Below, in pieces: positions 14,162 to 47,608 of a stretch of 47,608 bases of DNA. The stretch is from contig JAHEAY010000236.1 of assembly GCA_024642485.1 (NCBI GenBank), positions 1 to 47,608 on the forward strand. The letters are read 5' to 3'. How positions within the stretch are numbered: the stretch's first letter is position 1; every line of letters begins with the position of its first letter. The position numbers were made by a program, and so were the translations under genes. The notes beneath the pieces were generated by a model. That model searched no databases. It worked only from the letters and a program-made list of their open reading frames with translations, and was not told the origin of the DNA. Source of the DNA: Cytophagaceae bacterium. Its GTDB lineage: Bacteria > Bacteroidota > Bacteroidia > Cytophagales > Spirosomataceae.

Positions 14162-14235
14162 GGCGGGGTAGCTCAGATGGTTAGAGCGTTGGATTCATAA
14201 CCCAAAGGTCGGCAGTTCGATTCTGCTCCCCGCTA
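14162..14235 (+). tRNA. tRNA-Met (CAT), elongator type
   Basis: A complete cloverleaf of 74 nt. The acceptor GGCGGGG pairs with CCCCGCT (G1-U72), the loop TTCATAA gives anticodon CAT, and the T-arm is GGCAG-TTCGATT-CTGCT. The 3' CCA is not encoded. The lack of the three G-C pairs and of a C1-A72 mismatch argues against initiator tRNA. A CAT anticodon modified to read AUA (Ile2) cannot be excluded. The pair at 31-39 is an A-C mismatch. Confidence 0.93.
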
Positions 14236-14237
14236 CT

Positions 14238-14272
14238 AAAAAGACCTTACAATTTGTGGGGTCTTTTTTTTT
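14238..14272 (+). terminator. tRNA-Met terminator
   Basis: AAAAAGACC and GGTCTTTTT pair across a 13-nt loop and run into nine T. It starts 3 bp after the tRNA. Confidence 0.75.
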
Positions 14273-14357
14273 GGACTTAAGACGTTGGACGTTGGATTGT
14301 AGAGACGGGATACCTCGCGTCTTTTTTATTTTTAGACGCGAGGTATCGCGTCTCTAC
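14271..14357. repeat. Composite repeat: 7-bp units plus GTAGAGACG inverted repeat
   Basis: Four heptads of the TTGGACG family (14271-14298) run into a 24-bp left arm beginning GTAGAGACGGGATACC (14299-14322). An 11-bp AT-rich spacer and a matching right arm ending GCGTCTCTAC (14334-14357) follow. The same composite occurs, in opposite orientation, at 46898-47030. The right arm contains the stop codon of the dCMP deaminase gene. No transposase or open frame lies within. Confidence 0.8.
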
Positions 14358-14815
14358 ACTAGGTCTTTATAGGAAAGTACCTCTACCCCAAATTTGCGCA
14401 AGAAATCCACGCCTTCATCGGAAGCTAATCCTTTGTATGCGGCGTAGCTATTTAGATAGATTACCCTTTTGATTTTCATGCTGTAGATGATACGCGCACA
14501 GGAAATACAAGGCGAAAGCGTCACATAAATGGTAGATCCTTCAATAGAAGCTCCATTTTTGGATGCATATAAGATGGCATTTTGTTCTGCATGAAGGGCT
14601 AAGGAACAAGATCCTTTGGAGTCTTTCGGGCATCCCCCTTCCTCGTGAAAATCCTCGTCACAGTTATGCGTTCCTTGCGGTGGTCCATTGTAACCGATGG
14701 AAATGATGCGGGTATCTTTGGTCAACACAGCTCCAACCTGCGCCCGCGTACAATGCGAACGAAGTGCTAAACTCTGTGCTAAATCCATGTAGATGGAGTC
14801 GAAGGAGGGTTTCAT
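14354..14815 (-). CDS. Deoxycytidylate (dCMP) deaminase
   Basis: 153 residues, the normal length. Zinc site: HAEQNAI (His and catalytic Glu) and PCISCARI (two Cys). Also visible are RAQVGAVLTKDTRIISIGYNG and the Cys/His segment NCDEDFHEEGGCPKD, which is typical of ComEB-type dCMP deaminases. It converts dCMP to dUMP for thymidylate supply. The stop codon TAG is the TAG of a GTAGAGACGCG repeat arm. A 7-bp repeat array lies upstream of the start as well. Confidence 0.94.
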   Translation of the reverse strand: MKPSFDSIYMDLAQSLALRSHCTRAQVGAVLTKDTRIISIGYNGPPQGTHNCDEDFHEEGGCPKDSKGSCSLALHAEQNAILYASKNGASIEGSTIYVTLSPCISCARIIYSMKIKRVIYLNSYAAYKGLASDEGVDFLRKFGVEVLSYKDLV

Positions 14816-14860
14816 ATCTTTTTAGTTAAGAGTGAAGAGTTTTTTTTAAAATTTCAACGT

Positions 14861-14954
14861 TTAGTTCTTAACTCTTAACTCTTAGTTCTAAACTCTTAGT
14901 TCTAAACTCTTAGTTCTAAACTCTTAGTTCTAAACTCTTAGTTCTTAACTCTTA
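14861..14954. repeat. Degenerate 7-bp tandem array (13 units)
   Basis: Thirteen consecutive heptads of the form TTAGTTC, TTAACTC or TAAACTC, five of them pairs of TTAGTTC+TAAACTC (a 14-bp higher-order period). A short inverted piece (AGTTAAGAGTGAAGAG, 14824-14839) faces it across a T-rich gap, so the transcript could fold back. The final TTA at 14952-14954 is the complement of the stop codon of the FKBP gene. Confidence 0.85.
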
Positions 14955-15464
14955 ATGATGTACTCCCCCCTCCCCATGCACGTGTCCGTGCGCGATTTCG
15001 TCGGTGGTAGCTTCTCTTATTTTGATAACTTTTCCAGTAAAAATTAATTCTTTTTCTGCCAAAGGGTGGTTGAAGTCCATCATAACATGGTCATCGCCAA
15101 TGGAAACGACCATACCTTGCATGCGGTTTCCTTGGTCATCCGTCATCGGGATATAATTACCTACTTTTAAGATATCATCGGCTTTTTGGCCATCCACTTC
15201 AAAAATAGACTTTGGTAAAGATATGATTGCATTGGGATCAATGTTCCCGTAAGCATCTTCAGCTGCGATGTTGAAATTAAAGGTATCCCCTGCTTTCAGG
15301 CCTAGTAAATTAGCTTCGAAGCTTTCTGGTAGGCCACTTAAGCCATGAATAAATACCATCGGTTCGTTTTCATCTACGATTTCAACGACATCCGGTTGGC
15401 CATTCTCATCTGGAAATGCTAATTCATAAGAGATGAAAACAACGGAATTAGGTGCAATTTGCAT
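14952..15464 (-). CDS. SlyD-like FKBP peptidyl-prolyl isomerase
   Basis: About 170 residues from MQIAPNSVVFISYEL. A split FKBP domain contains an inserted IF domain: EPMVFIHGLSGLPESFEANLLGLKAGD, then YGNIDPNAIISLP, then NRMQGMVVSIGDDHVMMDFNHPLAEKELIF. The C-terminus is His-rich (HGHVHGEGGVHH), which in SlyD binds nickel. It is a cytoplasmic folding helper or metallochaperone. The frame extends 12 codons further upstream to an ATG at 15500, but the internal ATG matches family starts. A near-consensus TACCTTTA lies at 15496-15489. Its stop codon coincides with the edge of a heptad array. Confidence 0.93.
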   Translation of the reverse strand: MQIAPNSVVFISYELAFPDENGQPDVVEIVDENEPMVFIHGLSGLPESFEANLLGLKAGDTFNFNIAAEDAYGNIDPNAIISLPKSIFEVDGQKADDILKVGNYIPMTDDQGNRMQGMVVSIGDDHVMMDFNHPLAEKELIFTGKVIKIREATTDEIAHGHVHGEGGVHH

Positions 15465-15517
15465 GAAAGGGTGTTTTGATTTGAGGGGTAAAGGTAGCAA
15501 AAAGAGTTTAGAATTTT

Positions 15518-15667
15518 AGTTAAGAGTTAAGAACTAAGAGTGAAGAGTTAAGAACTAAGAGTTAAGAGTGAAGAGGTAAGAGTGAAGAGGTAAGAAGTTA
15601 GAGGTAAGTACTAACCTTTGAAATTTATAAAACAACTCTTCACTCTTAGTTCTTAACTCTTAACTTC
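15518..15667. repeat. Inverted pair of 7-bp arrays between FKBP gene and holA
   Basis: The left arm (15518-15608) has 13 heptads, mostly AGTTAAG, AACTAAG, AGTGAAG or AGGTAAG. The right arm (15634-15667) has about 4.5 units of the complement (AACTCTT, CACTCTT, AGTTCTT). The arms can pair over about 34 bp with a 25-nt or larger loop. This is the only array lying between two 5' ends, and it ends 4 bp before the holA -7 box. Confidence 0.85.
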
Positions 15668-15679: not shown

Positions 15680-15703
15680 TGAAAGCGAAAGCGACTACCC
15701 GTC

Positions 15704-20240: not shown

Positions 20241-23200
20241 TTAAAGACTCACTAATTTCCCTTGCACGACATCATTTCCTTGGCGGAAAAGGAAGATAAA
20301 TGTTTGGGAAATTTGGCCTTCAGGGATTGCGAACTCAATTTTTTGTTCCTCCCCTGCTTGTAATAAGCCTTCAAAAACAGTGGCAACTTTCATTCCTGAA
20401 ACATTGTATACATCTAGGCTTGCCTGTCCCGTGTACCGTGGAGTCATTGAGAACGTTAATGTACCTTTAAATGGATTCGGGTATGCTTGAACGGATTGAA
20501 TCGTTTCAGTTTGTTCTTGCACCACACGCGACATGGTTTTGATTTCAACGGAATTCGTTGTTTGGCTGCTAATTACAACTCTTCCTTGGTCGAAAGCATT
20601 GTTAATCATATCCACCGTCGTGAAAATATCCGATAAGCTAGGATCATTCGAACCTAATGTTCCCGCAAGTGCCGAATTAGCCAAATCCAATAATTGACCC
20701 ACTGTTTTATTAACCAATTTCGATGCCACTTTGAATTCTTTGGTATCTGAATAGTTAATGTTGCTCGTTGGGCAGATTAATTTGGCTGTTGTAAATGAAC
20801 TTGGCATTCTGAATCCAGCTAAACCTGTGGAAGTTTGTTTATTGATCCACAAAGTAATCGTTTGGGAAAGAAGGTTGTTGGTAATCTTTCCGTTTGAGGC
20901 TAATGGGGAGTTTTTGGCACCTAAATAATCTTTGCTGTAAGACCAACCTATCGTTTTGTTAGCGCTTAAAGCTGCAGGCGTTCCACCACCAGGTAACATT
21001 TTGAATATATTTTCACTTGTGATATCGGTTGGATAAAGCGTAAATGATTTTCCTCCCGTTGCCCCAAATGTAACAGATGTTACCCCTGAAAATGCGGCCA
21101 ACAATTTGTTTTTGGTAGTTGATCCATCACAAGCAAGTCCTCCCACGTTACCATAATAACCTTGCGTGTATGTCGCAAATTTGGCACATTCTGTCACAGT
21201 TACCGTAAAACTAGCAGTCGCGGAACAACCATCCGTTGTGCCCGTTGCTGTATACGTAATCGTATTTGTTGGGCTGATAGAAAGTAAGTTTCCTTGTTGG
21301 CCTCCAGTTGACCAAACGATACTTGTAGCTCCCGTTGCTGTTAGCGAAACGGTCTCACCTGCGCAAATGGTATTATTTCCGGAGATTAGGATGTTCGGAA
21401 GTGCTTTCACAGTAATTAATGTGCTTGCGCTTGATGAACAACCGTCTAAAGTTCCCGCAACTGTATAAGTTGTGTTTGTTACAGGATTTACGCTTATTTC
21501 AGCACTTGTTTGGCTTCCAGGCGTCCAAAGGTAAGATGTTGCATTCCCTGTCGCATTAATCGTTACGGTTTCTCCCACGCAGATTGATTTATCTGGAGAG
21601 ACTGATACAGTAGGGAGCGCTTTTACTTTGATGGTGATGCTGTTGCTGTTTTTACACGAATTTGCATCTGTTCCTGTTACGGTATATGTTACGGAACCAA
21701 CGTTTTGCTTGAAAGCCTGGTTGTTTGTTACAAAAGGATCCCAAGAATATGAAGTTGCTCCTGAACCGTATAAAGTTACACTTGTTCCGTCGCATACTTC
21801 TGTTGCGGTGGCATTTGCAACGACTTTTGGTAATTCGTTAACTGTTACTTCAACATCTTTTGAAGCAGAACAAGAGTGAATATCCGTACCCGTTACGGTA
21901 TACTTCGTTGTTGTTTCAGGCTTAACACTAATAGTAGCACCTGTTTCGGTTGTCGACCAAACATATGAATTAGCGCCAGAAGCTGTTAGATTAGTTGAGT
22001 TTCCAATACATATTGCTAAATCAGAAGTAAGACTGATTATAGGCAAAGCATTTACTGTTACCTCTACATCTTTTGAAGCAGAACAAGAGTGATTATCCGT
22101 ACCCGTTACGGTATACTTCGTTGTTGTTTCAGGCTTAATACTAATAGTAGCACCTGTTTCGGTTGTCGACCAAACATAAGAATTAGCGCCAGAAGCGGTA
22201 AGATTAGTTGAGTTTCCAATACATATGGCTAAATCAGAAGTAAGATTGATTATAGGTAAAGCATTTACTGTTACCTCTACATCTTTTGAAGCAGAACAAG
22301 AGTGATTATCCGTACCCGTTACGGTATACTTCGTTGTTGTTTCAGGCTTAACACTAATAGTAGCACCTGTTTCGGTTGTCGACCAAACATAAGAATTAGC
22401 GCCAGATGCCGTAAGATTAGTTGAATTTCCAAAACAAATAGCTAAATCAGAAGTAAGACTTATTGTTGGTAATTCATTTACTTTTATCGTTTTAGTTGCT
22501 GTATTGGTACAGCCTAGATTATCTTTTCCGGTAACGGTATATATCACGGTACCTACGTTTTGCTTGAAAGCAACATTATCTGAAACCAAATGATCCCAAG
22601 TATATGAAGTGGCTCCAGAACCATATAAGGTTACACTTGTACCATCACATACCTCAGTTTCAGATGCATTTGCTACGACATTAGGTAATTCGTTAACTGT
22701 TACTTCAACATCTTTTGACGCTGAACATGAGTTTAAATCGGTACCTGTTACAGTATATTTCGTTTTTGTTTCAGGCGAAACGCTTATAGTTGCATTTGTT
22801 TCAGTTGTTGACCAAAGATAAGAATTAGCCCCACCAGCAGTAAGGGTCGCTGATTTTCCAAAACAAATAGCTAAATCGGAAGTCAGGCTGATTGTAGGTA
22901 ATTCATTTACTTTTAGCGTTTTAGTTGCTGTATTTGTACAACCCTTATTGTCTGTTCCGGTAACGGTATATGTCACTGTACCAACGTTTTGTTTGAATGG
23001 TGCATTATTTGTGACTACAGGATCCCAAGTGTAATTAGTCGAAGGCGAACCCGAACCAAACAAGGTAATACTAGTTCCGTCACACACTTCAGTAGCGGAG
23101 GCATTTGCAACGACAGTTGGCAAAGCTAGCACTGTCACAGTTGTTGTTGCTGTGTTCACACAACCTTTCCCATCTGTTCCAGTAACGGTATATGTCACAG

Positions 23201-24539
23201 TACCAACGTTTTGTTTGAATGGTGCATTATTTGTGACTACAGGATCCCAAGTGTAATTAGTCGAAGGCGAACCCGAACCAAACAAGGTAATACTAGTTCC
23301 GTCACACACTTCAGTAGCAGAGGCATTTGCAACGACAGTTGGCAAAGCTAGCACAGTCACTGTGATTGTTGCTGTGTTCACACAACCTTTTCCATCCGTA
23401 CCGGTAACAGTATAGGTTACGGCTCCAACGTTTTGTTTGAATGCAACGTTATCAGTTACATCTGGACTCCAAGTATAAGTTGATGCGCCCGAACCATACA
23501 AAGTAACATTATTACCGTCGCAAACTTCTGATTTAGAGGCATTGGCTACGACAGTTGGCAATGCCAACACAGTAACCTTCACATTTTCTGAGGTCGAACA
23601 CCCATTACCGTAAGATAATGTATAAGTTAAAGTAAGTTCTCCAGCGGTTGACGAAGATAATTTTCCATCACTAATAGTTCCCGTTCCGGACGCTATTGAC
23701 CAAACACCATCTTTTTTCTCAGAGTTAATGAGAGCACTTAAGTTGGTAGATCCCCCTGCACAAAAGCTTGCTGGACTTAAACTAATACTAGGTTTGGCAT
23801 CAACAATCACAGTAAATTTCTCGGTAAATGATTCACAATCACTGACCTGATAAGTTACCTGGTATTGATAGGTTCCCGGAACCGCATTCGTGATGCTGTA
23901 TGTGTTGGAATTATTAGATATACTGGCATTATCCTTCTTCCAGACATAATTCGTAAATCCAGAAGCAGCTTGTAAATTAATCGATCCGCCTTCACAAATT
24001 TGTTTGATTTGTGTTTCAGCAATGTTTGAGGCTAATTTTGGCACTTTGGTAGAGACAACGATACATGATTCGTCATTGTTTCTTCCTTGGCCGTTGCCAA
24101 ATTTGAGAATGCTTTGGCCATCAACAAGGATGTATTTGCCTTTTAGGGTCGCCCGGTAATAATTGATTTTAGCTATTGAAGATCCTGAAAATTTCAAGAA
24201 AGATCCAAAGGTTTGGCAAGCCTGTGTACTTCCATCTGCTGTTGTGCTTGGGATTGTACTCCAGTTGACATTGTCGGCAGAGTTCTCTACCGTTAAGTTA
24301 CTTCCCGTGGGCAGACAGAAATTTTGTATCACAAAATGACTCAGCCCGGTATTGTTTGTTGTTTGTTCTACTTTCCAAACAATGACCGTGTAATCCCCGC
24401 TTTCTGTTAGAGTGGGATCTGAAATAGTAAATCCTTGTGCATGCACATGATTTTGGAAGCCGAGTAATCCACTTATAGTTAGTGCGAATACGGCCATAAG
24501 CTGTGTGAAGTGCTTTTTCATACGATTTTGGTTGAACAT
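20241..24539 (-). CDS. Giant secreted Ig-repeat surface protein with type IX secretion tail
   Basis: 1432 residues (an ATG at 24521, MKKHFTQLMAV, is an equally likely start). A signal peptide ends near VHAQG. An N-terminal domain to about residue 180 is followed by roughly twelve Ig-like/PKD-type repeats of 70-85 residues. Each has a Cys near the start and the end (ATEVCDGTSITLFGSG, YTVTGTDGKGCVNTATITVTV). A unique domain spans about residues 1110-1320, and the C-terminal sorting domain reads VQAYPNPFKGTLTFSM to the final KLVSL. The C-terminal domain is the type A signal for type IX export and cell-surface attachment. It probably acts in adhesion or biofilm. A long structured leader precedes it. 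Confidence 0.92.
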   Translation of the reverse strand: MFNQNRMKKHFTQLMAVFALTISGLLGFQNHVHAQGFTISDPTLTESGDYTVIVWKVEQTTNNTGLSHFVIQNFCLPTGSNLTVENSADNVNWSTIPSTTADGSTQACQTFGSFLKFSGSSIAKINYYRATLKGKYILVDGQSILKFGNGQGRNNDESCIVVSTKVPKLASNIAETQIKQICEGGSINLQAASGFTNYVWKKDNASISNNSNTYSITNAVPGTYQYQVTYQVSDCESFTEKFTVIVDAKPSISLSPASFCAGGSTNLSALINSEKKDGVWSIASGTGTISDGKLSSSTAGELTLTYTLSYGNGCSTSENVKVTVLALPTVVANASKSEVCDGNNVTLYGSGASTYTWSPDVTDNVAFKQNVGAVTYTVTGTDGKGCVNTATITVTVLALPTVVANASATEVCDGTSITLFGSGSPSTNYTWDPVVTNNAPFKQNVGTVTYTVTGTDGKGCVNTATTTVTVLALPTVVANASATEVCDGTSITLFGSGSPSTNYTWDPVVTNNAPFKQNVGTVTYTVTGTDNKGCTNTATKTLKVNELPTISLTSDLAICFGKSATLTAGGANSYLWSTTETNATISVSPETKTKYTVTGTDLNSCSASKDVEVTVNELPNVVANASETEVCDGTSVTLYGSGATSYTWDHLVSDNVAFKQNVGTVIYTVTGKDNLGCTNTATKTIKVNELPTISLTSDLAICFGNSTNLTASGANSYVWSTTETGATISVKPETTTKYTVTGTDNHSCSASKDVEVTVNALPIINLTSDLAICIGNSTNLTASGANSYVWSTTETGATISIKPETTTKYTVTGTDNHSCSASKDVEVTVNALPIISLTSDLAICIGNSTNLTASGANSYVWSTTETGATISVKPETTTKYTVTGTDIHSCSASKDVEVTVNELPKVVANATATEVCDGTSVTLYGSGATSYSWDPFVTNNQAFKQNVGSVTYTVTGTDANSCKNSNSITIKVKALPTVSVSPDKSICVGETVTINATGNATSYLWTPGSQTSAEISVNPVTNTTYTVAGTLDGCSSSASTLITVKALPNILISGNNTICAGETVSLTATGATSIVWSTGGQQGNLLSISPTNTITYTATGTTDGCSATASFTVTVTECAKFATYTQGYYGNVGGLACDGSTTKNKLLAAFSGVTSVTFGATGGKSFTLYPTDITSENIFKMLPGGGTPAALSANKTIGWSYSKDYLGAKNSPLASNGKITNNLLSQTITLWINKQTSTGLAGFRMPSSFTTAKLICPTSNINYSDTKEFKVASKLVNKTVGQLLDLANSALAGTLGSNDPSLSDIFTTVDMINNAFDQGRVVISSQTTNSVEIKTMSRVVQEQTETIQSVQAYPNPFKGTLTFSMTPRYTGQASLDVYNVSGMKVATVFEGLLQAGEEQKIEFAIPEGQISQTFIFLFRQGNDVVQGKLVSL
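21840..22478 (-). repeat. Three tandem 213-bp repeats within the surface-protein gene
   Basis: The same word (ACATCTTTTGAAGCAGAACA) recurs at 21853, 22066 and 22279, exactly 213 bp (71 codons) apart. The units are nearly identical at the DNA level, including synonymous sites, which indicates recent duplication or gene conversion. Each encodes one ICIGNSTNLTASGANSYVW-type Ig module. Confidence 0.88.
22961..23342 (-). repeat. Two 222-bp repeats within the surface-protein gene
   Basis: A stretch of about 140-160 bp is almost identical at an offset of 222 bp (74 codons). It contains CCAACGTTTTGTTTGAATGG, and ends at GGCAAAGCTAGC, which occurs at 23119 and 23341. A third, more diverged unit follows to about 23560. 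Confidence 0.8.
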
Positions 24540-30046: not shown

Positions 30047-30910
30047 ATGCTAGGAATTTTATCTGTCTTTTTGAGTTCGTGTTTTTTTGGATTTAGCAAT
30101 GCTTATTGGAAAAAGGCCGTAGCGAATCAACCATTTTTGCCTGTTATTTTTGTACGGGGGCTTTATTCATGTACGTTCTTTTTTATTTGTTGTTTGTTGG
30201 ATTATTATAGTGGTGTTTTTCAGCCTTGGTTGGGTATTTCACCGACTTTAACCCTTGATCATGTAAGTCTGAGCATCGCGCTTTGTCTTTTCAGTGGAAT
30301 GGGTTTGTATTTCTTTGTCAAATCGGTCAAAGAATCCCCTGTTTCCTTGGTCATACCATTAAGCTCACTCAATATTTTTGGCTTGTTAACTGCTGTATTT
30401 GTATTGGGAGAAAATTGGAAAAACAGTTATTACGGCGCTTTTTTGCTTGTTTTGCTTGGGATTTATTTAATCTACCAACAAGAAATTCGGTTTAAATCTC
30501 CCAAACTGTTCATGAAAGCCATGGTGGGAGGCTTGTTGGCATCCTTTTTTTGGGGTGTGTCCTATACCCTATTTAAGTATCCTATTTCGTGGTTGGGCGT
30601 TTTACGATTTACTTTTCTGTTGGAGTTAAGTGTTACCAGTATGGTGGGTTTGATGATTTGGATGCAGGGAATTCATAGGTCCTATATGCCCCAAAGACCC
30701 ATCTTGATTCTAGCATTTTGTTTGGTGATGGGATCTGTACTCCTGCATGTAGCCTATCAATTTGCGAGTATTACGCAAATTGTATTTGCTGGTAAATTTC
30801 AATTGATCATTTCCTTGTTGGTCGGTCAATTTTTATACCGCGAAAAGTTAAGTTTGAATCATTGGTTAGGGATAAGCCTATTAATTGCGTCAATCTATTT
30901 GATCTCTTAA
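30047..30910 (+). CDS. EamA/DMT-superfamily transporter
   Basis: 287 residues with ten predicted transmembrane helices in two five-helix halves. The opening ILSVFLSSCFFGFSNAYWKKAV, VSLVIPLSSLNIFGLLTAVFVLGE and the equivalent in the second half (FAGKFQLIISLLVGQFLYREKLSLNHWLGISLLIASIYLI) are typical of drug/metabolite exporters. The substrate is not predictable. It begins 3 bp after the HTH-like gene, so the two are co-transcribed. A 7-bp repeat array starts 12 bp beyond the stop. Confidence 0.88.
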   Translation: MLGILSVFLSSCFFGFSNAYWKKAVANQPFLPVIFVRGLYSCTFFFICCLLDYYSGVFQPWLGISPTLTLDHVSLSIALCLFSGMGLYFFVKSVKESPVSLVIPLSSLNIFGLLTAVFVLGENWKNSYYGAFLLVLLGIYLIYQQEIRFKSPKLFMKAMVGGLLASFFWGVSYTLFKYPISWLGVLRFTFLLELSVTSMVGLMIWMQGIHRSYMPQRPILILAFCLVMGSVLLHVAYQFASITQIVFAGKFQLIISLLVGQFLYREKLSLNHWLGISLLIASIYLIS

Positions 30911-30922
30911 ATGTAACGATAC

Positions 30923-30957
30923 CTCTTAACTCTTCACTCTTAACTCTTCACTCTTAT
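30923..30957. repeat. Short 7-bp array (5 units)
   Basis: CTCTTAA, CTCTTCA, CTCTTAA, CTCTTCA, CTCTTAT in tandem. It follows the EamA gene, whose own last seven bases are CTCTTAA including the stop. Confidence 0.75.
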
Positions 30958-43462: not shown

Positions 43463-43753
43463 ATGAATATGAACAGCATCAAAACCCTTGCCTACAGCCT
43501 ATTGATTATTTTCCTTTTCAGCTATGTAAGTGAAGGAATTTTATTGGCTTTTGAATTGAAAAAAACGCGTCGGAACAACTGGATCAAAATTGCCTTGATT
43601 GGATTGTTATTTATCAGCACGCTTATTTTGCTTTGGGCACCTTACCATGTTTTTGGACAAACAGCTGCAGATGGATTGTTTACTTTGGCCTTTACGTTTT
43701 ATGTGGCTGTGATGGTGATTGGGGGTGGATTGCAGTTGTTGGCACGTCAATAG
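43463..43753 (+). CDS. Small membrane protein, three helices
   Basis: 96 residues from MNMNSIKTLAYSLLII. Three transmembrane helices (LAYSLLIIFLFSYVSEGILLAF, WIKIALIGLLFISTLILLWAPYHVF, LFTLAFTFYVAVMVIGGGLQLL) with a basic loop KKTRRNNW. No family recognised. It diverges from the WYL gene with its own -7 box. Its TAG stop is the first TAG of a 7-bp array. Confidence 0.68.
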   Translation: MNMNSIKTLAYSLLIIFLFSYVSEGILLAFELKKTRRNNWIKIALIGLLFISTLILLWAPYHVFGQTAADGLFTLAFTFYVAVMVIGGGLQLLARQ

Positions 43754-43890
43754 ACGTTAGAGTTAAGAGTTAAGAACTAAGAGTGAAGAGCTGAGAAGTC
43801 GGCGAATTCATTGCCAATTCTAAATGATTTGACACAAAATATCTTACTATTAACACTTAATTCTTCACTCTTCACTCTTCACTCTCTTTT
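43752..43890. repeat. Inverted 7-bp arrays between convergent genes
   Basis: The left arm (43752-43800) is seven heptads (AGACGTT, AGAGTTA, AGAGTTA, AGAACTA, AGAGTGA, AGAGCTG, AGAAGTC). The right arm (43856-43890) is CTTAATT, three CTTCACT and CTCTTTT. The arms are complementary and could form a long imperfect hairpin, which would act as a shared terminator. The left arm supplies the TAG stop of the upstream gene; the right arm ends next to the madM stop. Confidence 0.82.
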
Positions 43891-43891
43891 A

Positions 43892-44656
43892 CTAGATTGC
43901 TTTCAACGCAAAATACAACACCGACGGACACATCAAGCATCCCAATCCAGTATAAAAAGTTGCTGTCATCGCTCCATAAGGAACTAATTTGGGATCTGTC
44001 GCGGCTAATCCTGCTGCCGTACCACTTGTTGTTCCCATTAAGCCACCAAATATCATGGCCGATTTGGGATTGTTCAAGCCAATATATGGCGCAATAAAAG
44101 GCGTACCAATCGTCACAAGAATAGATTTTACGACCCCAGCTCCAATGCTAATCGCAATGATATCTGAACTTGCTCCCACAGCAGTTCCTGTCACAGGACC
44201 TACAACAAAAGTGCAAGCTCCTGCACCAATTGTCGTTAAACTTTCCACATCTGTAATCCCAAATGCGTAAGCAATGCCTACCCCAGCAATAAATGAAAAG
44301 ATTACTCCCAGGAATAAAGACAAGATACCCACGGACCCCGTTTTCTTAATCACAGCAAAACTAGCGCCCATGGCCGTGGAAACGATGGCAAAGTCGCGGA
44401 ACATAGGACCTCCCATCACTTTAAAGCCCGTTAATCCCGGAATATCCGCGATTCCGCTTTTCCCTTCTGTCAATATTCCACCAATGTACGCAATGACCAA
44501 GCCCATGAAAATAGCGATGGCTGAACCTGGAAGTTTTTTATTGGTCAATTTGACCGAGATCCCTTCTGAAAAATAAACCATGATACCTGTGACCAAAAAT
44601 GCCACAATCAATCCATTTTTATCCAATAATTCGATGATGTATTCCATGTTAGTCAT
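43892..44656 (-). CDS. madM: Malonate transporter subunit MadM
   Basis: 254 residues, hydrophobic with about eight membrane helices. Family segments: LLDKNGLIVAFLVTGIMVYFSEGIS, LTGFKVMGGPMFRDFAIVSTAMGASF, GAGACTFVVGPVTGTAVGASSDIIAISIGAGVVKSI and MIFGGLMGTTSGTAAGLAATDPKLVPYGAMTATF. With MadL it imports malonate with sodium or protons. The start at 44656 overlaps the madL stop by 8 bp; an ATG at 44647 (MEYIIELL) is an alternative. The stop adjoins a 7-bp repeat array. Confidence 0.93.
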   Translation of the reverse strand: MTNMEYIIELLDKNGLIVAFLVTGIMVYFSEGISVKLTNKKLPGSAIAIFMGLVIAYIGGILTEGKSGIADIPGLTGFKVMGGPMFRDFAIVSTAMGASFAVIKKTGSVGILSLFLGVIFSFIAGVGIAYAFGITDVESLTTIGAGACTFVVGPVTGTAVGASSDIIAISIGAGVVKSILVTIGTPFIAPYIGLNNPKSAMIFGGLMGTTSGTAAGLAATDPKLVPYGAMTATFYTGLGCLMCPSVLYFALKAI

Positions 44657-45007: not shown

Positions 45008-46462
45008 CTATTGAATTAAGTTAACAACATCTTTTTTTGTCACTTTGCCCATGGCATTGCGCGGTAATTCCGCTAATACGGTATATTTTCTAGGACTTTT
45101 GTAGGCAGGCATTTGTTCCCGCATCCAAGTGTTTAACGCTTTTTCATCCACAGGACCCTTTGTTACAATGGCGGCTGCGACTAATTCGCCCCATTCGTCG
45201 TTGGGTAATCCTACAACCGAGCAATCTGCGATTCCAGGATATTGACGTAAAACTTCTTCTATTTCCAACGCTGAAATCTTATATCCCCCAGATTTAATAA
45301 TATCGACCGAATTTCTCCCTAGAATACGATATCCTCCTAATTCATCAATCGCGGCGATATCCCCCGTTTTAAACCAACCGTCTTCGGTGAAGGACTCTGC
45401 TGTTGATTCGGGTTTGTTCCAATATTCCTTAAAGACAGTTGGTCCCTTAATTTGAATTTCACCTTCAACAGATAAGCGAGCTGAAACACCAGGCAATGGA
45501 AAACCTACATGTCCCGCTACGCGTGGTCCATCGTAAGGATTACTCAAAGCCATCCCTATCTCTGTCATGCCATAACGTTCTAATAGTAAATGAGTTGAGA
45601 TCGCTTTCCAGCGCTCCATCACAGACACGGGTAATGCTGCTGAACCCGAAATCATCAGTCGGAGCTTAGCTAAGGCATTCGTTAATTCAATTTGTTTATC
45701 TTTTGCCAAAGCTTCCCAATACGTAATTAACTTAAAATAGATCGTGGGTACAGCCATAAACACATTGATTTTTTGTTTCTCAATGAGTTCATATATTGCT
45801 TTTTCGCTGAAATTTGGCATGAATTCACAGCTAGCTCCTGCCCATAATGAACAAGAAACGACATTAACAACACCATGCACATGGTGCAACGGTAATACGC
45901 AAACCGTCGAATCCTCAGATGTCCATTTCCAAGCTTCTATCAGGGAAGAAATTTGAGCATTTAAATTGCCATGGGTACTCACCACACCTTTCGGTAAATT
46001 CGTTGTACCACTCGTGTAAAGAATCATTGCACCGCGCTCATCGAATACTTCAGGCAGCTTTTTCGAATGTTTTGCTGTATCATTTTTGCCCAAAACGATG
46101 AATCGACATTTCAGTTCTTGGGCTAAATCAGCAAGCATACCTTCAAATTCTGGTGAAACCACAATGACAGAGGCACCAGAATTCTCTATCGTATATCGCA
46201 ATGATGGCAAGGGATAACTCAAGCAAAGGGGAACCACGATTCCACCTGCCTGCCAAATGCCCCATTGAACTTTAACATAATCGAAGCCCGGATTTACCAT
46301 GAAGGCCACCCGGCTCTCGGCTAAATCATCCGATTCATCCAACAGTAGATGAGCAAAATTGGCCGATGCCTGATGTAAATCTGTGTAGGAATATGTTTTA
46401 CCTTCTGATATGATGGCCGTTTTTTCGGCGTATGGAAGGGAATTTTGAAAAATTTGAATCAT
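45008..46462 (-). CDS. matB: Malonyl-CoA synthetase-like acyl-CoA ligase
   Basis: 484 residues. AMP-forming ligase with the P-loop region MILYTSGTTNLPKGVVSTHGN, core A3/A5-type motifs (LLERYGMTEIGMALSN, WFKTGDIAAIDELGGYRILGR) and C-terminal lysine region PRNAMGKVTKKDVV. Its length suits MatB. Assignment to malonate rests on the adjoining madLM genes plus family resemblance; another short-chain acid cannot be excluded. It activates imported malonate to malonyl-CoA. No malonyl-CoA decarboxylase (matA) is present in the window. Confidence 0.87.
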   Translation of the reverse strand: MIQIFQNSLPYAEKTAIISEGKTYSYTDLHQASANFAHLLLDESDDLAESRVAFMVNPGFDYVKVQWGIWQAGGIVVPLCLSYPLPSLRYTIENSGASVIVVSPEFEGMLADLAQELKCRFIVLGKNDTAKHSKKLPEVFDERGAMILYTSGTTNLPKGVVSTHGNLNAQISSLIEAWKWTSEDSTVCVLPLHHVHGVVNVVSCSLWAGASCEFMPNFSEKAIYELIEKQKINVFMAVPTIYFKLITYWEALAKDKQIELTNALAKLRLMISGSAALPVSVMERWKAISTHLLLERYGMTEIGMALSNPYDGPRVAGHVGFPLPGVSARLSVEGEIQIKGPTVFKEYWNKPESTAESFTEDGWFKTGDIAAIDELGGYRILGRNSVDIIKSGGYKISALEIEEVLRQYPGIADCSVVGLPNDEWGELVAAAIVTKGPVDEKALNTWMREQMPAYKSPRKYTVLAELPRNAMGKVTKKDVVNLIQ

Positions 46463-46469
46463 GGTTATA

Positions 46470-46570
46470 AGTCACTAGTCGCTAGTCACTAGTCTTTTTT
46501 TATTTATTAGTAATTCCCCTCCTCTTCACTCTTAATTCTTAATTCTTAACTCTTAACTCTTAACTCTCTA
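46470..46570. repeat. Two 7-bp arrays at the Dabb gene 3' end
   Basis: AGTCACT, AGTCGCT, AGTCACT, AGTCTTT (46470-46497) form one family. CTCTTCA, CTCTTAA, two TTCTTAA, two CTCTTAA, CTCTCTA (46522-46570) form the other. The second array overlaps the last eight codons of the Dabb gene (residues E-L-R-V-K-S and stop). Confidence 0.82.
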
Positions 46571-46860: not shown

Positions 46861-47030
46861 GTAGGGACGCGATACCTCGCGCCTAGTTTATTTTTTTGTA
46901 GAGACGCGATACCTCGCGTCTAGTTTTATTTATTTAAGACGCGAAGTATCGCGTCTCTACAGTCCAATGTCCAATGTCAAACGTCCAATGTCCAATGTCA
47001 AACGTCAAACGTCTAACGTCTATTGTCTAA
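46861..47030. repeat. Composite repeat: three GTAGAGACGCG arms plus 7-bp array
   Basis: Arms start GTAGGGACGCGATACC (46861-46883) and GTAGAGACGCGATACC (46898-46921), with an inverted arm ending GCGTCTCTAC (46937-46960). Heptads TGTCCAA, TGTCAAA, CGTCAAA and CGTCTAA follow for 10 units (46962-47030). This repeats the architecture at 14271-14357 in reverse. The array end supplies the stop codon and last residues of the PIG-L gene. Confidence 0.85.
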
Positions 47031-47608
47031 TAAGTTAGCCATCAACCTCCACGCCCCCGGAACTCCCGCCGGTAATTCCCGGAAGAAAACTAATCCTGTA
47101 TAGATGAATTGGCCTTTTCCATAGCGACAAACCGCAATGTTTCCCTTTTGCTCCGCTTCTCCTGGATCCGTAAAGGCTAAAGGGAATTGATAATGTGTAT
47201 CGTTCGATTCGCCTAAGTAAATGCTTCTCTCCTGAATCCAGTTGTCAAAATCACGTTCCGTAATTTCATTAGGTGCATGAAATAACGCATGATCCATCAA
47301 GAATTTTGGCGTAGCTTCTTCTTTCGTAATTCGATTCCGAGAAATGGTTAAAGGGTAAGGGCCAACGGTGCTTTTGAGTGGCCCAACAAAGCTTGCTGTA
47401 TTGTATTGAACCACATAATTTCCACCTTGCTCCACATATTTCATCAATTCGGCGTGTGCATTTCCCAAATAATCCAAGGTATTATGAGCACGAACTCCTG
47501 TCAGCACCACATCATATTGTGCCAAATGGCTCGCTTTCAAGTCGGCCTCTTGCAAGAAATCCACTTGATAGCCCATCTGCTCTAAACTCTCCGGAACTTT
47601 ATCTCCAG
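47013..47608 (-). CDS. PIG-L family deacetylase-like protein, C-terminal part
   Basis: Only the last 198 residues are in the window; the N-terminus (where the LmbE/PIG-L deacetylase domain would lie) is off the right edge. The visible part matches the C-terminal domain of large Bacteroidota PIG-L family proteins: YQVDFLQEADLKASHLAQYDVVLTGVRAHNTLDYL, MKYVEQGGNYVVQYNT, VGPYPLTISRNRIT, RDFDNWIQERSIYLG and YTGLVFFRELPAGVPGAWRLMANLL. It is a glutamine-amidotransferase-like fold in family members. The final DNRR and the TAG stop fall within a 7-bp repeat array. Confidence 0.8.
   Translation of the reverse strand, partial: GDKVPESLEQMGYQVDFLQEADLKASHLAQYDVVLTGVRAHNTLDYLGNAHAELMKYVEQGGNYVVQYNTASFVGPLKSTVGPYPLTISRNRITKEEATPKFLMDHALFHAPNEITERDFDNWIQERSIYLGESNDTHYQFPLAFTDPGEAEQKGNIAVCRYGKGQFIYTGLVFFRELPAGVPGAWRLMANLLDNRR

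Follow-up and report, generated by a model that had tools for sequence, protein, structure and literature searches.

The window, that is, the whole 47,608-nucleotide stretch analysed here, is contig C225 of the draft genome G000 (2.54 Mb, 238 contigs, 89% complete), whose host was taken to be a freshwater bacterium of the genus Aquirufa. Six of its genes are considered for the repeats at their 3' ends. Three of the products passed the Pfam cut-offs (dCMP_cyt_deam_1, EamA and Dabb), FKBP_C scored slightly under its cut-off (20.7 vs 21.1 bits), and the small membrane protein had no Pfam match. The PIG-L gene (47013-47608) is truncated by the window end; the fragment in the window had no Pfam match, the full-length gene of genome G023 matched PF02585 (1.2e-16), and relatives mostly possessed open frames of 820-900 aa. 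The arrays of the window were located with Tandem Repeats Finder, and the features considered are as follows:

14281-14357, minus strand: 3' end of the dCMP deaminase gene, with GACGTTG heptamers (14281-14296) and a GTAGAGACG-type hairpin (about 14299-14357)
14354-14356, minus strand: TAG stop of the dCMP deaminase, common to the hairpin arm GTAGAGACGCG; the closest relatives end at most one codon away
14873-14954, minus strand: GAGTTAA/GAACTAA array 3' of FKBP, the first TAA of which is the ancestral FKBP stop
15518-15665, no strand given: two heptamer arrays between divergent gene starts, unlisted in the original prediction
30923-30956, no strand given: CTCTTAACTCTTCA array beginning 12 bases past the EamA stop, which is ancestral
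43751-43790, plus strand: TAGACGT then a GAGTTAA array, providing the stop of the small membrane protein
43862-43885, no strand given: C-rich array immediately beyond the stop of a convergent gene (43892-44656, minus strand)
46470-46494, no strand given: AGTCACT array adjoining the start of a gene (45008-46462, minus strand)
46522-46569, minus strand: GAGTTAA array encoding RELRVKS and providing the Dabb stop (46546-46548)
46861-46960, no strand given: GTAGAGACGCG-type hairpin repeats, located between the Dabb start and the PIG-L stop
46962-47031, minus strand: GACATTG/GACGTTA array encoding DNRR and providing the PIG-L stop (47013-47015)

The original prediction, made from this sequence, had placed six stop codons within repeats. 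All six coordinates were correct and five of the stops overlap repeats, but that of EamA does not: it ends a CTCTTAA as described (TAA, 30908-30910, plus strand), but this heptamer is solitary and the array follows only downstream. The FKBP stop (TAA, 14952-14954, minus strand) is the first TTAA of its array, the stop of the small membrane protein (TAG, 43751-43753, plus strand) belongs to the first unit, TAGACGT, and the PIG-L residues DNRR with their stop are written as GACAATAGACGTTAG. The arrays at 15518-15665 are a counterexample to a pure 3'-end rule; a second, also absent from the prediction, is the hairpin repeat from 46861, found upstream of the Dabb start at a distance of 12 bases. 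Tandem repeats of another kind, in-frame and 213 and 222 bp long, were found in the gene of a 1432-aa protein with an Ig_7 domain (20241-24539, minus strand).

Placement was counted in samples of three genomes, with the window as a further set: 455,527 bases from 45 G000 contigs chosen without regard to repeats, longer ones being represented by their first 20 kb (hereafter G000u); 400 kb, later 800 kb, of the 2.5 Mb contig of G007; and 400 kb of G021. G000 contigs selected for CTCTTAACTCTTAA (the CTCTTAA-selected set, G000b) were handled separately from G000u and omitted from the pooled placement, array-start and polarity counts; in this set, an array lay within 10 bp of the stop in 24 of 166 genes and at the start in two. 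Genes were called with a simple custom ORF rule, and the outcome was stable across four array thresholds and two gene-length limits. Arrays that were at least 60% coding were excluded from the placement, class-of-spacer, arm-pairing and polarity counts, simple runs of 1-3 bp were removed from every array count, and the polarity counts were made without arrays lacking a G-C excess (6 of 162).

Arrays of period 7 (with its multiple 14) exceeded those of periods 4-6 and 8-13 in the spacers of all five sets examined, with 53 against 1-5 in 400 kb of G007, 49 against 0-9 in G021 and 22 against 2-8 in G000u, and they were mainly intergenic (spacer vs coding: 53 vs 4, 49 vs 18 and 22 vs 10, respectively). 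The genes that had an array no more than 10 bp from their stop or from their start numbered 14 and 1 of 424 in G000u, 19 and 5 of 358 in G007, 24 and 6 of 343 in G021, and 6 and 2 of 46 in the window. The placement at 3' ends is non-random, as had been proposed from the six cases: among 162 pooled period-7 spacer arrays from the samples of the three Aquirufa genomes, 73 lay within 10 bp of a stop, compared to 37.8 (sd 4.7) under a same-spacer null, which moves each array within its own spacer, and 24.1 (sd 4.5) under an any-spacer null, which moves it to any spacer, and 42 overlapped a stop by at least 3 bp (17.0 and 11.5, respectively), both counts being reached in 0 of 300 shuffles. The comparison of stops with starts that had been suggested alongside gave the same 3' enrichment and no excess at starts, where 15 arrays were found against 15.6 under the same-spacer null and fewer than the 32.0 of the any-spacer null. 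No comparable stop effect was detected for periods 5, 6, 8, 9, 10, 11 and 13 (13 to 25 arrays each), the strongest being that of period 9 (8 arrays near stops vs 4.2 under the any-spacer null, a level attained in 3 of 61 shuffles).

The position of the first array was surveyed in genes of roughly 100 codons or longer, at the 117 3' ends that had an array at the stop or beyond it. Relative to the end of the stop codon, it started between -24 and 0 in 57 cases, between 1 and 10 in 18, between 11 and 20 in one, between 21 and 50 in 12 and more than 50 bp downstream in 26, and farther upstream in three, Dabb among them. Among the 57 arrays starting between -24 and 0, the stop was inside the array in 43 and the sense strand was G-rich in 53. 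TAG was over-used among array stops in G000u (5/9; p = 0.02) and G007 (8/16; p = 0.015), and no over-use was found in G021 (4/15; p = 0.75). Arrays occupied a smaller share of divergent than of convergent spacer sequence in G007 (0.016 vs 0.164) and G000u (0.005 vs 0.063); the depletion of divergent spacers was weak in G021 (0.048, with 0.036 in co-directional spacers) and absent in the window (0.131 vs 0.138).

Homologues were compared at the same gene ends using 27 of 28 matching rows for Dabb, 28 of 28 for PIG-L, 14 of 21 for the small membrane protein and 6 of 6 for EamA, the rest being under the tblastn limit. At two of the six genes the repeat has taken over the end of the reading frame. 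RELRVKS and the stop of Dabb are array sequence, as predicted, and array-free relatives end in EIDYTVI.., EIDYQLLDQ-stop and similar; DNRR and the stop of PIG-L are likewise array sequence, where array-free relatives end in NPNLK-stop, NPNSK-stop, KPQ-stop and similar. An array covered the Dabb stop in five of 27 loci, in four different words (GAGTTAA in G000 and G011, GGTAAGA in G023, AGAGTAG in G003, GAGGTGA in G006), while the stop was array-free in 21 and one locus was cut off. For PIG-L, six of 28 loci possessed an array over the stop, ending in DNRR-stop (G000, G011, G012, G006), DNGR-stop (G003) or, with another word, LISR-stop (G023); three of the 22 loci without one carried an array about 30 bp downstream.

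The stop of the small membrane protein is indeed the first TAG of its array and differs by about one codon from that of the closest relatives; among 14 loci, array stops were found in G000, G006, G012 and G003, G023 and G011 had a hairpin directly past the stop, and the remaining eight, which are distant, had no array at the stop. The EamA stop fell within one codon across all six loci, with a downstream array in two. The FKBP and dCMP deaminase stops are shared with repeats as described, each at an ancestral position: within one codon in 16 of 16 loci for FKBP and, for the deaminase, among the closest relatives (G000, G023, G012, G006 and G019), other Aquirufa being about three codons shorter to three longer. 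The prediction had taken array-free homologues with the same C-terminus as evidence against it; array-free homologues ending in the same stop column (within one codon) were found for EamA (G007, G020, G013, G022) and FKBP (G019), and none for Dabb or PIG-L. Heptamers were present at the 3' end of the dCMP deaminase gene in at least 16 of 21 genus loci, in six words as read by eye. The FKBP gene lies upstream of the deaminase gene on the same strand in G000 (window 14354-15500), G023, G006 and G012, whereas the two are convergent in the 12 other loci having both, which indicates a local rearrangement. At five deaminase loci (L031, L034-L037), the last 20 or so bases of the gene are followed by their own inverted copy, a hairpin derived from coding sequence.

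Close relatives bear different heptamer words at the same gene end. The gene side of the PIG-L locus could be aligned in G000, G011 and G023, and by eye a hairpin-like stretch followed the array in each, with the array reading GACNTTN in G000 and G011 and AGTCGCT in G023. The G000 and G011 arrays differ by exactly 42 nt, i.e. six units. In Dabb, the GAG-TTA-AGA of G000 lines up with GAG-ATA-TGA in G011, so that the TGA stop of G011 is lost as AGA in G000, whose frame is closed by a TAA farther along the array; an origin of this C-terminus by a 7-nt deletion was rejected, a gap-free alignment with two substitutions being simpler. Individual words were restricted to lineages, with GAATGTAGAATGTAG present in 5 of 31 genus genomes and CTCTTAACTCTTAA in 3 of the 25 examined within the genus and 1 of the 14 from elsewhere in the order. 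The G023 locus L277 (contig C39) has, near a gene start, a GCGACTA array whose counterpart in the window (near 15690) is a single GCGACTA; possibly this array was born from one unit. In the same G023 locus, the spacer 3' of tRNA-Met contained two additional incomplete copies of the tRNA 3' end, both with a terminator-like stretch behind them.

The arrays also obeyed a polarity rule. Within 50 bp of a gene edge, whether stop or start, the G-rich strand pointed away from the gene in 101 arrays and towards it in 12 (79 vs 8 at stops, 22 vs 4 at starts), compared to 23 vs 20 beyond 50 bp. The result was the same at all four array thresholds and both gene-length limits; for single-array spacers alone it was not significant (18/30). 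The G-rich strand closed all three reading frames within 28 nt in 28 of 66 arrays in G007, 24 of 39 in G021 and 5 of 16 in G000u, whereas the C-rich strand did so in 5, 8 and 3 and random spacer 28-mers in 5-9%. The proposed selection for arrays that keep a stop is partly supported by the more frequent frame closure by G-rich strands, but cannot be the sole cause of the pattern, since the same outward polarity holds at starts and in arrays not reaching the stop.

The GTAGAGACGCG hairpin, a palindrome scattered over spacers and often paired, was present in 15 of 31 genus genomes (81 pattern matches in G000, 80 in G011 and 51 in G023) and in the window at 46861-46960 and 14299-14357. A second dispersed hairpin, of the CCCCAGACT..AGTCTGGGG type, occurred in the same spacers of G023 and G011 (L023, L047, L201, L202). 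When eight stretches were folded as RNA, six folded better than their shuffles (z from -2.9 to -9.3, the best being L038), including window positions 14214-14360 (z = -8.5) and 46870-47018 (z = -8.3). Two of the strongest folds include the GTAGAGACGCG hairpin. A plasmid search with the hairpin as query returned only three matches at an E value of 4, including a 28-bp match to a Nostoc plasmid; with the array as query, for which the BLAST low-complexity filter may hide arrays, it returned no match.

These folds bear on a possible function of the arrays as bidirectional terminators or as stem-loops that stabilise 3' ends, in which a G-rich arm and its C-rich complement fold in the mRNA. Such a role would suit the order of neighbouring arrays within 200 bp (G-rich then C-rich in 60 cases vs 6 in the reverse order, G000b included), the six good folds and the preference for convergent spacers in G007, G021 and G000u. 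However, arms were mostly no more complementary to their own partner than to arms elsewhere, the own partner being the best match in 3/5, 1/12, 2/25 and 5/18 comparisons, which also disfavours an origin of arrays by exact inverted copying, and the arms of one locus were often different words. In G007, 3' ends with an array near the stop folded no better than ends lacking one (median z = -1.94, n = 25, vs -2.08, n = 60), while G021 leaned the opposite way (-2.15, n = 18, vs -1.29, n = 56). The EamA (z = 0.65) and Dabb (z = -0.53) stretches folded poorly, and the strongest window folds came from the GTAGAGACGCG hairpin and not from the heptamers. As a general cause this explanation was set aside and is unlikely; the folding and arm-pairing results favour repeat dynamics with selection over it, though such a role may exist locally at some ends. 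It is quite improbable that the arrays are mobile units inserted by a dedicated enzyme preferring stop codons or termination regions, the targeted insertion of the original prediction. One word does occur at many dispersed loci, the words GAATGTAGAATGTAG and CTCTTAACTCTTAA are lineage-restricted and stop overlap exceeds chance, but the polarity rule holds at starts too, the first array began more than 10 bp past the stop at 39 of the 117 ends, and a clean empty/filled site pair with target duplication was found at none of the six array-bearing orthologous spacers compared. Of the two enzyme families searched, the Y1 transposase (PF01797) matched in 9 of 31 genus genomes and in none of G000, G007 and G023, and the reverse transcriptase (PF00078) in 5 of 31 and in none of G000, G021 and G023, several genomes being incomplete; as neither family is shared throughout the genus, a genus-wide RAYT or reverse transcriptase was discarded as a candidate.

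A third possibility is a directional process, independent of coding, that would lengthen arrays so that their G-rich strand points outward from the gene, and would consume the spacer until selection halts it at the ORF boundary. It would match the 101 to 12 polarity near edges and its loss beyond 50 bp, and the same rule is described with other words in Xanthomonas and Nostoc in the portions of PMC4692102 considered here. The same polarity could, however, arise from selection acting on the composition of the sense and antisense strands near starts and stops, and with the non-significant single-array spacers this leaves the process doubtful as the explanation. A broader form, in which such a process builds arrays outward from the edges of genes and replaces the word between species, is unlikely too; on that reading, the same polarity in Bacteroidota (here) and in Gammaproteobacteria and Cyanobacteria (as published) would point to one shared mechanism, linked to replication or transcription, that regenerates arrays at the same ends with new words.

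The explanation we favour, and consider probable, is that slippage drives the heptamer repeats and selection filters them, with tolerance wherever they carry stops of their own. The arrays belong to the class of dispersed heptanucleotide tandem repeats known from cyanobacteria, Xanthomonas and Beggiatoaceae. They would be born and resized in 7-bp steps, most likely through polymerase slippage, with the word shifting between species, while selection would clear them from coding DNA and promoter regions and let them persist at gene 3' ends, even where they replace the last codons. Stop codons abound on the G-rich strand of most words (TAGACGT, TAAGAGT, TAGAGTA, TAGAATG and similar ones), so an array overrunning an old stop would tend to close the frame by itself and would then own the stop. 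The placement, the polarity, the stop takeover at Dabb and PIG-L, the six-unit difference and the word differences at the same ends are observed; that slippage drives the arrays and that selection accounts for where they lie is our inference. Several observations stand against slippage with selection: stop-keeping leaves the outward polarity at starts and clear of stops unexplained, in G000u the G-rich strand closes frames little more often than the C-rich strand (5/16 vs 3/16), and divergent depletion is absent in the window and weak in G021. The exchange of the PIG-L word between G000 or G011 and G023 is not simple slippage.

Heptamer repeats are already known from several bacterial groups. 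Related species with different words at the same stop, under one polarity rule, make slippage, selection, directional growth and mobility separable by strain comparison. Dabb and PIG-L also illustrate a simple route for changing a C-terminus, in which a repeat overruns the old stop and a new stop follows within a few codons. The STRR heptamers of heterocystous cyanobacteria are seven-base tandem units dispersed through the genome, as are the Aquirufa arrays.

The closest likeness is to the heptamer repeats that Rehm et al. (2015; PMC4692102, in the portions considered here) describe in Xanthomonas and Nostoc, GGGAATC and GGGGA(C/T)T, whose G-rich strand is sense after stops and antisense before starts, and some of which overlap stops. 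Both systems consist of dispersed, mostly intergenic 7-bp units that overlap stops, form convergent inverted pairs and share the polarity near ORFs (79 vs 8 at stops and 22 vs 4 at starts in Aquirufa), and in both the same genes flank the repeats in a relative while their length varies. The Xanthomonas and Nostoc repeats are rare between divergent ORFs, as in G007 and G000u, weakly in G021 and not in the window. Those species have one G-tract word type each, whereas an Aquirufa genome has several words, and their words form G-quadruplexes in vitro, whereas the Aquirufa words, by eye, mostly lack GGG, which is present in some G021 words (TTAGGGA, TTTAGGG). The TAACTGA direct repeats that MacGregor (2015; PMC4679880, in the portions considered here) describes in Beggiatoaceae, Cyanobacteria and five Bacteroidetes are likewise intergenic heptamers, with mixed heptamer arrays in some Bacteroidetes; they overlap the stop of the upstream gene in 13 ORFs, and forward repeats yield stops in all frames. 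In the Beggiatoaceae genome, however, they lie mostly just upstream of starts in forward orientation, while the Aquirufa arrays favour stops and not starts. The GTAGAGACGCG hairpin resembles the REP/BIME and REPIN hairpins (PMC3116915, in part) as a dispersed, often paired spacer palindrome. In contrast to REP/REPIN with RAYT as described there, G000 had no PF01797 match and the heptamer arrays are not palindromes. Among the titles and abstract openings searched, none described orthologous stops with differing heptamer words, and those on Aquirufa and repeats did not concern stop-end heptamers. The placement rule is already known from Xanthomonas and Nostoc (PMC4692102, same portions), and words that differ between species at one gene end distinguish the Aquirufa arrays from those repeats.
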